Assembly: GCA_015233895.1 (NCBI GenBank)
Contig: JADFXG010000035.1
Coordinates: 1 to 32,694, forward strand
Reading direction: 5' to 3'
From: Nitrospirota bacterium
GTDB lineage: Bacteria > Nitrospirota > Thermodesulfovibrionia > Thermodesulfovibrionales > Magnetobacteriaceae
Length of the DNA stretch: 32,694 nt
Under the pieces are notes generated by a model. The model did not search any database. It saw only the letters and a list, made by a program, of their open reading frames with translations, and was not told where the DNA came from. Position numbers and translations under genes: made by a program. The number at the start of each line of letters is the position of its first letter. Within the stretch, counting starts at the first letter, position 1. Positions 9,405 to 27,533 of the stretch are shown here, piece by piece.

Positions 9405-12883
<3,479 letters not shown>

Positions 12884-13212
12884 GTTACCCTAATCATAAT
12901 CAGCCCTCCACCACCTTTATAAAGACGCCCTTACTTACTCAACCACCTTAAAACAAGCCCTTAAGTAAAGTCAATACATTTTCCCTACCCTTTTACGCCC
13001 TGCACCATTTTTACAATACCCTCCATTTACTACCAAGTAAAAACGTAATAGAGGAGTGTAGCATATGGGGACTTACAGATGACTTACAGATGACTTACAG
13101 ATTGAGAATTTTTTTGCATACTGTGCAGATTTTTGCACATAGTTTTTCCTCACCTGCGTCCATTTGAGGATTATTCCTTACCTTTTTGACAGATGCCTGA
13201 TATAAAAGTTAC
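12884..13212. other. intergenic region carrying the phosphorelay promoter
   Basis: There is no gene in this stretch. It contains the triple direct repeat and -10 box of the phosphorelay promoter, an untranslated leader of about 165 nt, and a palindrome TGTGCA-N6-TGCACA (13122-13139) about 20 bp upstream of the repeats. The palindrome could be an additional operator; no T-run follows it on the minus strand, so it is not a terminator for rlmD. Confidence 0.55.
13055..13102 (-). promoter_or_regulatory. promoter with three 11-bp-spaced direct repeats
   Basis: On the minus strand ATCTGTAAGT occurs three times (ending at 13093, 13082 and 13071), each separated by one base, a strict 11-bp period. 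After the last GTAAG there are exactly 11 nt, then a -10-like TACACT (13060-13055). The repeats cover the -35 region, as expected for an OmpR/SARP-fold activator. The same layout recurs at 25934-25970 and 27497-27533. Confidence 0.65.
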
Positions 13213-14460
13213 TTACTTAGGGAGTTTTGGCTCATTTTTCAGTTCAAATACTGAAAGAGTTTCAGCATGGTATGTGTTTGGAAACATGTCAAATAATCTG
13301 ACTGATAGAAGCTCATACATATCCATGAGTTTTGCAGCGTCACGGGCAAACGTTGAGGGATTGCATGAGACATAGGCAATCTTTACGGGTGAAAGCGCTT
13401 TCAGTGTTTCCATCGCTTTGTTTGTTAACCCGGAACGAGGAGGGTCTATTATTACGATATCATATTTTTGCAGTGAGCGGTGTTTTTCAAATGGTTTCGT
13501 TTTAAAGGCCACATTCTTAACGTTGTTTAGTTTAATGTTACGCAGACCGTCCTCAACACTGTGCCGGTTTTCCTCAATAACTGTAACATTATGAGCTGAA
13601 AATGACAGCGGAATGGCAAAATTCCCGCCGCCACCGTAAACATCCAGAATATTTTTTCCCTCAAGCGGCTCAAGAAGCTCCAACATCTTCTCTATCAACA
13701 AAGAGTTCATAGCCCAGTTGGACTGAATAAACCCCATTGGCGATACAGTATATGTAAATGCAGGGGTGTCACTTTCAAACACACAAAACGTCTTCTCCGC
13801 CGATATCCCCTCATCGGAAACAACTGCGTCAAAACCAATATCAAGGAAAAAATCCAACTGCGACTCATCCACACCCTCCCCTTTCACATAAGCTATCGTG
13901 TTAGAGCCGGAAAGAATTTGAACTTCCCTTAAACCCCTTAAAAAACGAGCGCCTGTCAATTTTCCAAGGAATTTATTAATCACAGGGTTTAACAAATGGC
14001 ATTCACTGATGGGAATCACATGCCTTGAGTTTTCCCGATAGAAACCGATTTCAGGCTCACTGCCCCCTGAAATCTTAAACTGCGCCTTGTTTCTGTAATT
14101 CCATTGGTTTAGAAAAACTGTCTCTTTAAGCGGTATTCCGCCCTCATTCATTTTACCAATTCTAACGAGGCAGTCCAAAAGGATTTCCTCTTTGATGGAA
14201 AGCTGCCTTTCATAAGAAATGTGCTGATAGTGGCAGCCCCCACAGAGGTTATAATCCTTGCAACGGGGAGTGACCCTGTCTGATGAAGCGTTAAGTATCT
14301 CTACTGCTTGCGCTATCGAGTAGTCACGTTTACTTTCAGTAAGCTCCGCTATGACCCTCTCGCCGGGCAGTGTCCCTTTTACGAAGATGACGCCGTCTTT
14401 TTTTGACAGGCACATTCCTCCATAAACAGGGGCTGCCGGCTCAAGCTCCAGGAGTTTCAT
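13213..14460 (-). CDS. rlmD: 23S rRNA (uracil-C5)-methyltransferase, RlmD/RumA family
   Basis: S-adenosylmethionine-dependent 5-methyluridine methyltransferase of the TrmA/RlmD family. A TRAM-like N-terminal domain (about 1-57) precedes the [4Fe-4S] cysteine pattern CKDYNLCGGCHYQH (about 65-78) with a fourth Cys in SECHLLNP (about 160). The SAM-binding segment is ILDVYGGGGNFAIPL (about 272), then IIDPPRSGL and the catalytic Cys in YVSCNPSTFARD (about 368). 415 aa, usual size. ATG at 14460 overlaps the upstream receiver gene's stop as ATGA, so the longer reading from 14541 is rejected. The target uridine is not certain; RlmD/RlmCD-like is inferred from the iron-sulfur cysteines. Confidence 0.87.
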   Translation of the reverse strand: MKLLELEPAAPVYGGMCLSKKDGVIFVKGTLPGERVIAELTESKRDYSIAQAVEILNASSDRVTPRCKDYNLCGGCHYQHISYERQLSIKEEILLDCLVRIGKMNEGGIPLKETVFLNQWNYRNKAQFKISGGSEPEIGFYRENSRHVIPISECHLLNPVINKFLGKLTGARFLRGLREVQILSGSNTIAYVKGEGVDESQLDFFLDIGFDAVVSDEGISAEKTFCVFESDTPAFTYTVSPMGFIQSNWAMNSLLIEKMLELLEPLEGKNILDVYGGGGNFAIPLSFSAHNVTVIEENRHSVEDGLRNIKLNNVKNVAFKTKPFEKHRSLQKYDIVIIDPPRSGLTNKAMETLKALSPVKIAYVSCNPSTFARDAAKLMDMYELLSVRLFDMFPNTYHAETLSVFELKNEPKLPK

Positions 14461-24432: not shown

Positions 24433-25782
24433 CTATTTAAGATCACAATTTCGTTTTATTGTTATAGTAAACTGAGCCCCACCATCATTATTTCTGACAG
24501 ATAATACCCCTCCTATTTTTTCCTCAACAATTTTCTTTGCCAAATATAATCCTAATCCAGTTCCATTCTCTGAAGATTTTGTGCTTACATATGGCTCATA
24601 GATTTTATCTATAACATATGCTGGTATCCCACCACCATTGTCTTGTACTGTCACAATTATTTCATCTTCTGTTCCTTTAAGAAAAATCAAAATGGTTCCC
24701 TTATATCCGTTATCTGATAGTTTGTTTTTACTGATTATCGCATCTCTTGCATTGTTAATTAAATTCAACAGTACTTGTTTAAATTCGGTAGAGCAACCAA
24801 CAAATGATAAATAAGATTCACTCCCCTTAATTTTTACTATAATTTCAAGATTATGTGCTTTTCTGTAGGATTCTCCAAACATAAACATTAAATCATCAAT
24901 TATTTTCTTTACGCTGATAATCTGTTGTTTTTTTGCAGGCATTAAAAAATCTCTGAAATTATCTATTGTCTTTGACATAAATTTAATCTGTGAATGAATT
25001 ATCTCAATAGATTTATATAAAGATTCTTTGCTCATTTCATTATAAACGTATGTATCCTTTACATCTTCTACGGTAAGCGATATAGCATTCAAAGGCTGTT
25101 TCCATTGATGGGCTATCATGGATATAATCTCACCCATGCTTGCCATCTTTGATTGCTGTATCAACATTTGCTCATGTTGGTATCTGTTATTCACCTCCTC
25201 TTCTACTCTTTTTTCAAGGTGCTGATTTAAAGATAATAAGTCTTTCTCGACTAACTTCTTCAAATTGATCTCATTTTGTAATTTTTGATTGATAGCTGTT
25301 AGCTCATTTGTACGCTCTAATACCATCTCTTCTAACTTCTCCTTCTCCGCACCTATATTCCTAAATAAAAGGTTAAAGGGTTTATTCAAACCCATTAAAA
25401 AAATTGCTTTATATATAAAATAGTAGGACATAACTTTTAAAATATGCCCAGATACGTTCAGATAGCCATATAAATCTTCATAGAAAGTAAAACAAAGCCC
25501 TGACAGTACTGTGAAAAATATTGAAATTGCTATTAAATCCAAAACATCTTTATGAAAAAATCTCTTGCTTTTAAAAAGTAGGTACTTATTTTCCATATAC
25601 TGACGTGTATTGCATGTGAGAGTAAAAAGGCAAAATGCTATAACTATACAAAACAATTCAACAATCGTATGATATGCTAAATACCCGTAAAGACAGCTTA
25701 AAACTAGAACTAATATTAGGAAACCCAACAAAAAATTACTTTTTAAAACCTTTAAATTATAAGATTTTATTATGTTTTCCAT
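24433..25782 (-). CDS. MASE3-type membrane sensor histidine kinase with shortened sensor
   Basis: A 449-aa kinase anchored by N-terminal membrane helices. The sensor begins like MASE3 (YHTIVELFCIVIAFCLF) and ends like MASE3 (GLCFTFYEDLYGYLNVSGH, YYFIYKAIF...NKPFNLLFRN), but the middle helices that normally follow NKYLLF seem absent: it jumps straight to KSKRFFHKDVLDLIAISI. A long coiled coil (about 145-210) leads to HisKA with IAHQWKQPLNAI (about 226) and an intact HATPase (INNARDAI, DNGGGI, GTGLGLYLAKKI). There is no receiver in cis. ATG at 25782 has GAGGG 4 nt upstream. Upstream lie an 11-bp-repeat promoter and a Crp/Fnr-type site, so it may answer to both. Confidence 0.88.
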   Translation of the reverse strand: MENIIKSYNLKVLKSNFLLGFLILVLVLSCLYGYLAYHTIVELFCIVIAFCLFTLTCNTRQYMENKYLLFKSKRFFHKDVLDLIAISIFFTVLSGLCFTFYEDLYGYLNVSGHILKVMSYYFIYKAIFLMGLNKPFNLLFRNIGAEKEKLEEMVLERTNELTAINQKLQNEINLKKLVEKDLLSLNQHLEKRVEEEVNNRYQHEQMLIQQSKMASMGEIISMIAHQWKQPLNAISLTVEDVKDTYVYNEMSKESLYKSIEIIHSQIKFMSKTIDNFRDFLMPAKKQQIISVKKIIDDLMFMFGESYRKAHNLEIIVKIKGSESYLSFVGCSTEFKQVLLNLINNARDAIISKNKLSDNGYKGTILIFLKGTEDEIIVTVQDNGGGIPAYVIDKIYEPYVSTKSSENGTGLGLYLAKKIVEEKIGGVLSVRNNDGGAQFTITIKRNCDLK

Positions 25783-25804: not shown

Positions 25805-25915
25805 CTATTCAACTTGTGTTTCAGATACTATCTCTCTAATAATCCCCTCCAGTTCTTCTGATGTCCTGAAAGTTTTTGCTTCTTCATTATTTAGTTCCTC
25901 ATTCTCCCCTAAAAA
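25805..25915 (-). pseudogene. truncated copy of the 52-aa small ORF
   Basis: The frame ends NNEEAKTFRTSEELEGIIRE then IVSETQVE and a TAG at 25807-25805. About 75 bp are nearly identical to the end of the intact copy (27236-27394), and the sequence just upstream matches that copy's leader (GAGGAACTAA). The roughly 110 bp between them in the intact copy are missing, so the start and the first half of the protein are lost. No in-frame start codon is present. It is a remnant of a duplicated promoter-ORF cassette. Confidence 0.6.
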
Positions 25916-25933
25916 AGTACCGTTGTTGCATTT

Positions 25934-25970
25934 ATAATAAATGAAGGTATCTTACATATTACTTACAAAT
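25934..25970 (-). promoter_or_regulatory. promoter with two 11-bp-spaced direct repeats
   Basis: Minus strand ATTTGTAAG (25970-25962) and ATATGTAAG (25959-25951) lie 11 bp apart. After the last GTAAG come exactly 11 nt, then TATTAT (25939-25934) as -10. It faces the small-ORF remnant and the MASE3 kinase. Confidence 0.6.
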
Positions 25971-27496: not shown

Positions 27497-27533
27497 ATTT
27501 TAAACAATAGTATCTTACAGATCACTTACAGAT
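27497..27533 (-). promoter_or_regulatory. promoter with two 11-bp-spaced direct repeats ahead of the 52-aa ORF
   Basis: Minus strand ATCTGTAAG (27533-27525) and ATCTGTAAG (27522-27514), 11 bp apart. Exactly 11 nt then precede TAAAAT (27502-27497). The site lies 67 bp beyond the stop of the BTAD regulator gene, so it is positioned to be controlled by that protein. Confidence 0.65.

Follow-up and report, generated by a model that had tools for sequence, protein, structure and literature searches.

Escherichia coli MalT, a STAND ATPase, ends in a LuxR-type helix-turn-helix. PhoB is a winged-helix (wHTH) protein; in its PHO box, direct repeats of 11 bp stop some 10 bp short of the -10 element. 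Among SARP regulators, the AfsR repeat is given in the available part of a 2024 review as CGTT(T/C)ATCGNN, and the same part describes SARP regulators as exclusive to actinobacteria (PMC10972967). R92 of AfsR recognises T-38 and T88 the base pair at -36, and the 3' repeat of SARP sites lies 8 bp from the -10 element, according to the accessible text of a second source (PMC10936776). The PimR operator consists of three CGGCAAG heptamers with 4-nt spacers, hence an 11-bp period; in the excerpted report, binding needs at least two copies and the heptamers do not overlap the -35 position (PMC5930380). The SARP domain comes first in PimR, as stated in the portion available (PMC3367932). A BTAD/TPR regulator of a Streptococcus is mentioned, with no operator in the available excerpt (PMC5987052). 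Limited literature listings, many of them unrelated, contained no paper on the operator described below or on SARP-STAND operators outside actinobacteria.

Here, a repeat ahead of a kinase/HD-GYP operon in a Nitrospirota bacterium is read, from sequence comparison, as very probably a SARP-type operator for MalT-SARP hybrid activators. This activator class is the main result; the first-pass annotation, made from the DNA letters, had not named it.

The repeat and the operon downstream

The window, meaning the whole 32,694-nucleotide stretch analysed, contains three perfect copies of ACTTACAGAT (plus-strand letters) at 13071-13080, 13082-13091 and 13093-13102. TRF agrees with the three tandem copies first annotated, returning 13070-13102 with period 11, 3.0 copies and 100%. 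The period-11 self-match of 22 consecutive positions is the window maximum, and 40 first-order Markov simulations reach at most 9, so the repeat is not a product of chance. The interval originally assigned to the repeat, 13055-13102, needs trimming: the repeat itself occupies 13071-13102, and 13055-13070 is the -10 region and spacer. On the minus strand, from which the operon is read, the order is ATCTGTAAGTC, ATCTGTAAGTC, ATCTGTAAGT, CCCCATATGC and TACACT (13060-13055), the hexamer starting 10 bp past the last repeat. Direct repeats with an 11- or 22-bp period that overlap the -35 position characterize SARP operators; here the period is 11 and the last unit covers the -35 position. The previously described -10 box after the repeat, leader of about 165 nt before the ATG at 12883, and palindrome farther upstream were all recovered (Table 1), with a predicted start site for the leader.

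Three other candidates in this region were rejected. A search of 12860-13260 for an ordinary sigma70 promoter found no -35/-10 pair. Known RNA elements such as a riboswitch were rejected for the leader, as Rfam gave no match in the window or the leader and folding of the leader is not unusual (z -0.95). The palindrome was dismissed as a terminator: the single terminator-like match has plus-strand orientation, and no gene on that strand ends there.

The operon runs leftward from the operator through three genes. The HD and HHExxDGxGYP motifs are present in the product of gene 3, in keeping with the HD-GYP output proposed for the operon. Residues 1-284 of the gene 1 kinase share about 60% identity with the N-termini of other proteins of the same genome (contigs 1 and 39), and appear from this alignment to be a shared sensor part.

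Table 1. Features of the window
Feature	Position	Strand	Basis or remark
Response regulator with HD-GYP domain (gene 3), 351 aa	6782..7837	-	
Histidine kinase with two receiver domains (gene 2), 534 aa	7800..9404	-	
Hybrid histidine kinase (PAS, HisKA, HATPase, two receivers, Hpt; gene 1), 1159 aa	9404..12883	-	
Untranslated leader, about 165 nt to the ATG at 12883	12884..13048	-	putative start site near 13048
Extended -10, TGC TACACT; hexamer TACACT 13055-13060	13055..13063	-	sequence and fixed spacing
Predicted operator, three perfect 11-bp units ATCTGTAAGTC, the last ending ATCTGTAAGT	13071..13102	-	
Palindrome TGTGCA-N6-TGCACA, upstream of the operator	13122..13139	.	
Two-unit operator, -10 TATTAT at 25934-25939, before the MASE3 histidine kinase (24433-25782)	25950..25970	-	
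Small uncharacterised protein, 52 aa	27236..27394	-	after the window regulator and its site
Two-unit operator, -10 TAAAAT at 27497-27502, just downstream of the regulator gene	27513..27533	-	
STAND regulator, MalT-like ATPase, TPR sensor and C-terminal SARP (wHTH and BTAD), 1089 aa	27601..30870	-	

A promoter set with fixed spacing

A pattern search for the repeat units across the host genome (3.71 Mb, 65 contigs) finds at least two units at six promoters on four contigs, and each promoter has a TANNNT hexamer 10 bp beyond the last unit. Five further weak matches, with 3 mismatches, are chance-like. The annotated idea of a shared, activator-type promoter thus stands, as a set of six with a fixed phase between repeat and -10. 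The contig 4 site has a CRP-type regulator downstream and the contig 5 site an HD-GYP protein; in the window, site 25950 precedes the MASE3 kinase and site 27513 the small protein. The sixth promoter lies at the edge of contig 49, and the matching site (L116) in G003, a genome of the same genus, precedes a MASE3 sensor protein. An HD-GYP gene follows the site on contig 5 and also at a locus in a relative (L120), so c-di-GMP turnover genes recur among the targets.

The spacing extends to relatives. In 60 genomes searched with the repeat only, leaving the -10 out of the selection, every one of the 14 distinct sites with no more than a single mismatch places TANNNT exactly at +10 (chance about 0.025 each), as do 5 of 11 sites with two mismatches. 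In a 54-site set picked on the hexamer and not on TG, 30 sites have TG one base ahead of the hexamer, forming an extended -10, versus a background of about 4%. The motif occurs with AAG, AAC, AAT, AGG or AGT, and because the motif varies by clade, site counts are lower bounds; many of the surveyed genomes are metagenome bins. Three genomes of one genus (G005, G011 and G013) carry 9 to 11 sites each, mostly ATnTGTAAC replacing AAG, which by sequence would represent an enlarged site set with shifted specificity. At L090:1323-1423, four tandem 11-bp units of the ATGTAAC/GTGTAAC type lie between a regulator gene and that of its small protein.

The intergenic region of the operon aligns throughout with that of G003, apart from one absent 11-bp unit, which leaves two units versus three here, and a separate gap further down. 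The -10 and both palindrome arms are kept, and the conserved pair comprises the two units closest to the -10; unit number therefore changes and phase does not. The change from three units to two between close species is what a functionless tandem repeat arising by replication slippage could also produce. Slippage is nonetheless an extremely improbable account of a motif that occurs at six promoters on four contigs, keeps an exact distance from the -10 and accompanies the same regulator class in other phyla, and it is contradicted by the conserved phase: the ortholog and all 14 close-match sites keep the repeat in register with the -10, and the free drift expected of a neutral repeat was not seen. 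What does not survive this comparison is the triple repeat as the key feature, because the third copy is missing from the only close ortholog and a third full unit, on the upstream side, occurs at 3 of 57 collected sites. One listed site in a further genome (G094) also has three units. The leader is a separate curiosity: 12884-13030 is 95% identical to G003 over about 145 bases, versus 86% for the first protein, and was found in 2 of 19 genomes of the family.

The regulator class and its linkage to the operator

The window regulator joins parts of two known proteins. NCBIfam assigns it a MalT-like N-terminus and an AfsR-like C-terminus, with both matches under the curated cut-offs. A Walker A motif (APAGSGKTT) and a TPR domain III mark it as a MalT-type STAND protein; at the C-terminus, a SARP/BTAD region, an OmpR-type wHTH followed by BTAD, occupies the place of a LuxR-type helix-turn-helix. 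In the structure model (mean pLDDT 81.6, pTM 0.55), residues 6-418 match the MalT ATPase 8bob domain by domain only (Z 21.4, rmsd 16.0, 379 residues), residues 451-829 match MalT domain III 1hz4 (Z 29.0, rmsd 3.4, 358 aligned) and residues 841-1089 match the AfsR SARP 8k60 (Z 19.8, rmsd 3.8, 241 aligned). Foldseek and structure comparison liken the C-terminal part to the AfsR SARP and EmbR. A profile search among solved structures (profile A1) retrieves AfsR over its length at E 9.3e-17 and EmbR at 8.1e-10, with designed TPR proteins and O-GlcNAc transferase outranking AfsR owing to the TPR part of BTAD.

The resemblance may extend to DNA contacts. By manual count on the alignment, the window regulator has the same residues as AfsR at W74, T88, R92, R94 and K95. 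Assuming a register in which the unit is written TnTGTAAGnnn, it would agree with the AfsR repeat in having T as its third base and a pyrimidine as its fifth, and the gap to the -10 would be 8 bp; written ATnTGTAAGT, the gap is 10 bp. Changes in the recognition helix follow no clear rule against the AAG, AAC and AGG motif variants.

Sites and regulators of this class occur together across genomes. When 84,980 genomes were scanned on DNA sequence alone for two motif units followed by TANNNT, 26 stretches came back, of which 9 belong to bins of the host's own family, 1 to another Nitrospirota bin and 16 to other groups. Regulators were sought with a wHTH and BTAD profile built from five Nitrospirota regulators. 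A strong SARP-STAND gene lies in the DNA surrounding 7 of the 16 stretches outside Nitrospirota, and a weak one beside 1 more. Behind the out-of-family matches are 16 genomes (one is the other Nitrospirota bin, and two stretches come from one genome), of which a 22-row profile gives 10 strong, 1 weak and 5 no matches; apart from the other Nitrospirota bin, those without a match are four genomes whose site matches appear to be low-complexity or chance. Besides Nitrospirota, the regulators occur at loci labelled Gamma-, Beta- and Deltaproteobacteria, and sites immediately adjoining regulator genes include loci labelled Delta- and Gammaproteobacteria.

Within Nitrospirota, a survey of 395 genomes with a looser pattern (at most one mismatch) finds 89 sites in 40 genomes, whereas the reversed pattern gives 9 in 9 genomes. 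The regulator profile matches 107 of the 395, including 32 of the 40 site genomes versus 75 of the 355 others (Fisher p = 1.8e-13, phylogeny ignored); it was not found in 8 site genomes, and 4 of the 9 reversed-pattern genomes carry the regulator. Distances were available for 88 of the 89 sites, with regulator positions among the matches listed for site genomes: 40 sites, in 26 genomes, lie within 5 kb of a regulator domain, 35 of them downstream on the same strand and 30 within 700 bp, where a rough estimate for random positions equally near is below 1%. Most surveyed regulators have no detected adjacent site under the strict pattern. A de novo repeat count beside 35 genes, at 13 rows versus 0.05 by shuffle, is weaker than it looks because many loci were chosen by motif; in 19 loci chosen for a BTAD gene or a kinase match, the count is 3 rows at 2 loci.

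This linkage also bears on whether an OmpR/PhoB-family response regulator binds the repeat as a PHO-box-like site. The PHO box likewise has 11-bp repeats before the -10, so the geometry and the wHTH superfamily are shared, and the genome encodes four OmpR-type regulators. The AfsR box is itself also recognised by PhoP in Streptomyces, in the available part of the review (PMC10972967). None of the four OmpR-type genes, however, shares a contig with any of the six sites, while 26 of the 40 site genomes have a site no more than 5 kb from a SARP-STAND gene and distant groups show the same pairing, which makes an OmpR/PhoB-type binder quite unlikely.

Given a SARP-type operator, which protein acts on it is a further question. 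The genome encodes four paralogous candidates, on contigs 35 (the window), 17, 4 and 32, so a single common activator for the promoter set is putative. Two of the four have an adjacent site, and the operon's operator lies about 14 kb from the window regulator. That the contig 4 or contig 32 paralog acts there, and not the window regulator, is slightly favoured: of the four regulators, only those on contig 4 (89% identity) and contig 32 (97.7%) have orthologs in G003, where the operator is kept, which is the reason for leaning, with low certainty, to one of these two, and the spacer letters TC are common to the contig 4, contig 5 and operon sites. On the other side, the recognition helices of the paralogs are very similar, the G003 genome is 93% complete and its contig 4 ortholog (L115:5273-8400) is split over two reading frames. 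The kinase ortholog in G003 has an internal stop; these split orthologs are broken genes or assembly errors. Action by another paralog refines the reading as a MalT-SARP operator and is no alternative to it.

Homologues of the small protein often follow the site, at loci from Geobacteraceae, Gammaproteobacteria and other Nitrospirota. Neither Pfam nor NCBIfam has a family that accounts for the small proteins; the model is beta-beta-beta-alpha (pLDDT 85.5), with no match in the PDB at E <=0.001, an absence that carries no weight as evidence. The protein could be a feedback partner of the activator. At L184:979-1422 the small domain is fused ahead of a PilZ domain, a possible direct link to c-di-GMP, and a PilZ protein at L223:306-758 matches the small-protein profile more weakly. 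A remnant of a small-protein gene lies in the MASE3 kinase leader (25808-25951, with a match in L007), so the unit of regulator, site and small protein has seemingly been partly duplicated.

An alpha/beta-hydrolase gene adjoins the regulator gene, or shares its operon, on contig 4 and in G016, and hydrolase genes also lie beside regulators at L023:12160-13065 and L122:9322-10275. At L122 the order of site, hydrolase, Phenol_MetA_deg protein and regulator suggests autoregulation. The esterase Aes inhibits MalT in E. coli, so these regulators could conceivably have a similar partner.

Proposed mechanism, significance and comparison with known systems

From these patterns we infer binding and activation as follows. 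In a sigma70-type promoter that depends on an activator, the repeat would act as operator and take the place of the -35, with one SARP-type winged-helix domain reading each 11-bp unit (core ATnTGTAA[G/C]). Two protomers would sit side by side on one helix face, ending a fixed distance from the extended -10. The presumed activators are large, MalT-like STAND ATPases in which an AfsR-type SARP tail replaces the DNA-binding domain of MalT. By analogy with AfsR and MalT, an inducer together with ATP may free the SARP domain, which would then keep region 4 of sigma in place at a promoter that lacks a good -35. Activation would turn on the histidine kinase, the second kinase and the HD-GYP response regulator as one operon.

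The operator and this kind of regulator occur together in Nitrospirota and in proteobacterial lineages. Such loci outside actinobacteria count against the exclusivity claimed in the 2024 review, not against homology to SARP regulators. The evidence is evenly poised on whether they represent a widespread, undescribed module, in which a MalT-bodied STAND/SARP activator has its own operator after its gene and a dedicated beta3-alpha partner made from that operator (PilZ-fused in one genome). Such a module, if real, would connect the sensing of an inducer with histidine-kinase and c-di-GMP circuits. For bacteria that can hardly be cultivated, the work predicts a regulon and adds a new family of small proteins, and many "BTAD domain" proteins that lack known targets become testable, their operator being predictable from the DNA just past their own gene.

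The PhoB system resembles the operator in repeat geometry and in the wHTH, and differs in box sequence and in the linked OmpR-type gene that is missing here. MalT (PDB 8bob and 1hz4) shares the STAND ATPase at the N-terminus and the TPR sensor of domain III, with the LuxR-type helix-turn-helix where the SARP domain sits here: a modular swap that leaves the MalT body and exchanges its DNA-reading end for a SARP tail. PimR, a SARP-LAL protein, has the 11-bp period, but its CGGCAAG units, their position clear of the -35 and its leading SARP domain, as far as the excerpted sources describe them, set it apart. The likeness to AfsR and the afs box of Streptomyces coelicolor (PDB 8hvr and 8k60) covers SARP fold and sequence, including T88 and R92, a pair of 11-bp direct repeats that overlap the -35, and a STAND ATPase with TPR; here, however, SARP forms the C-terminus behind a MalT-like ATPase/TPR part, the core is ATnTGTAAG instead of CGTT(T/C)ATCG, and the hosts are not actinomycetes.
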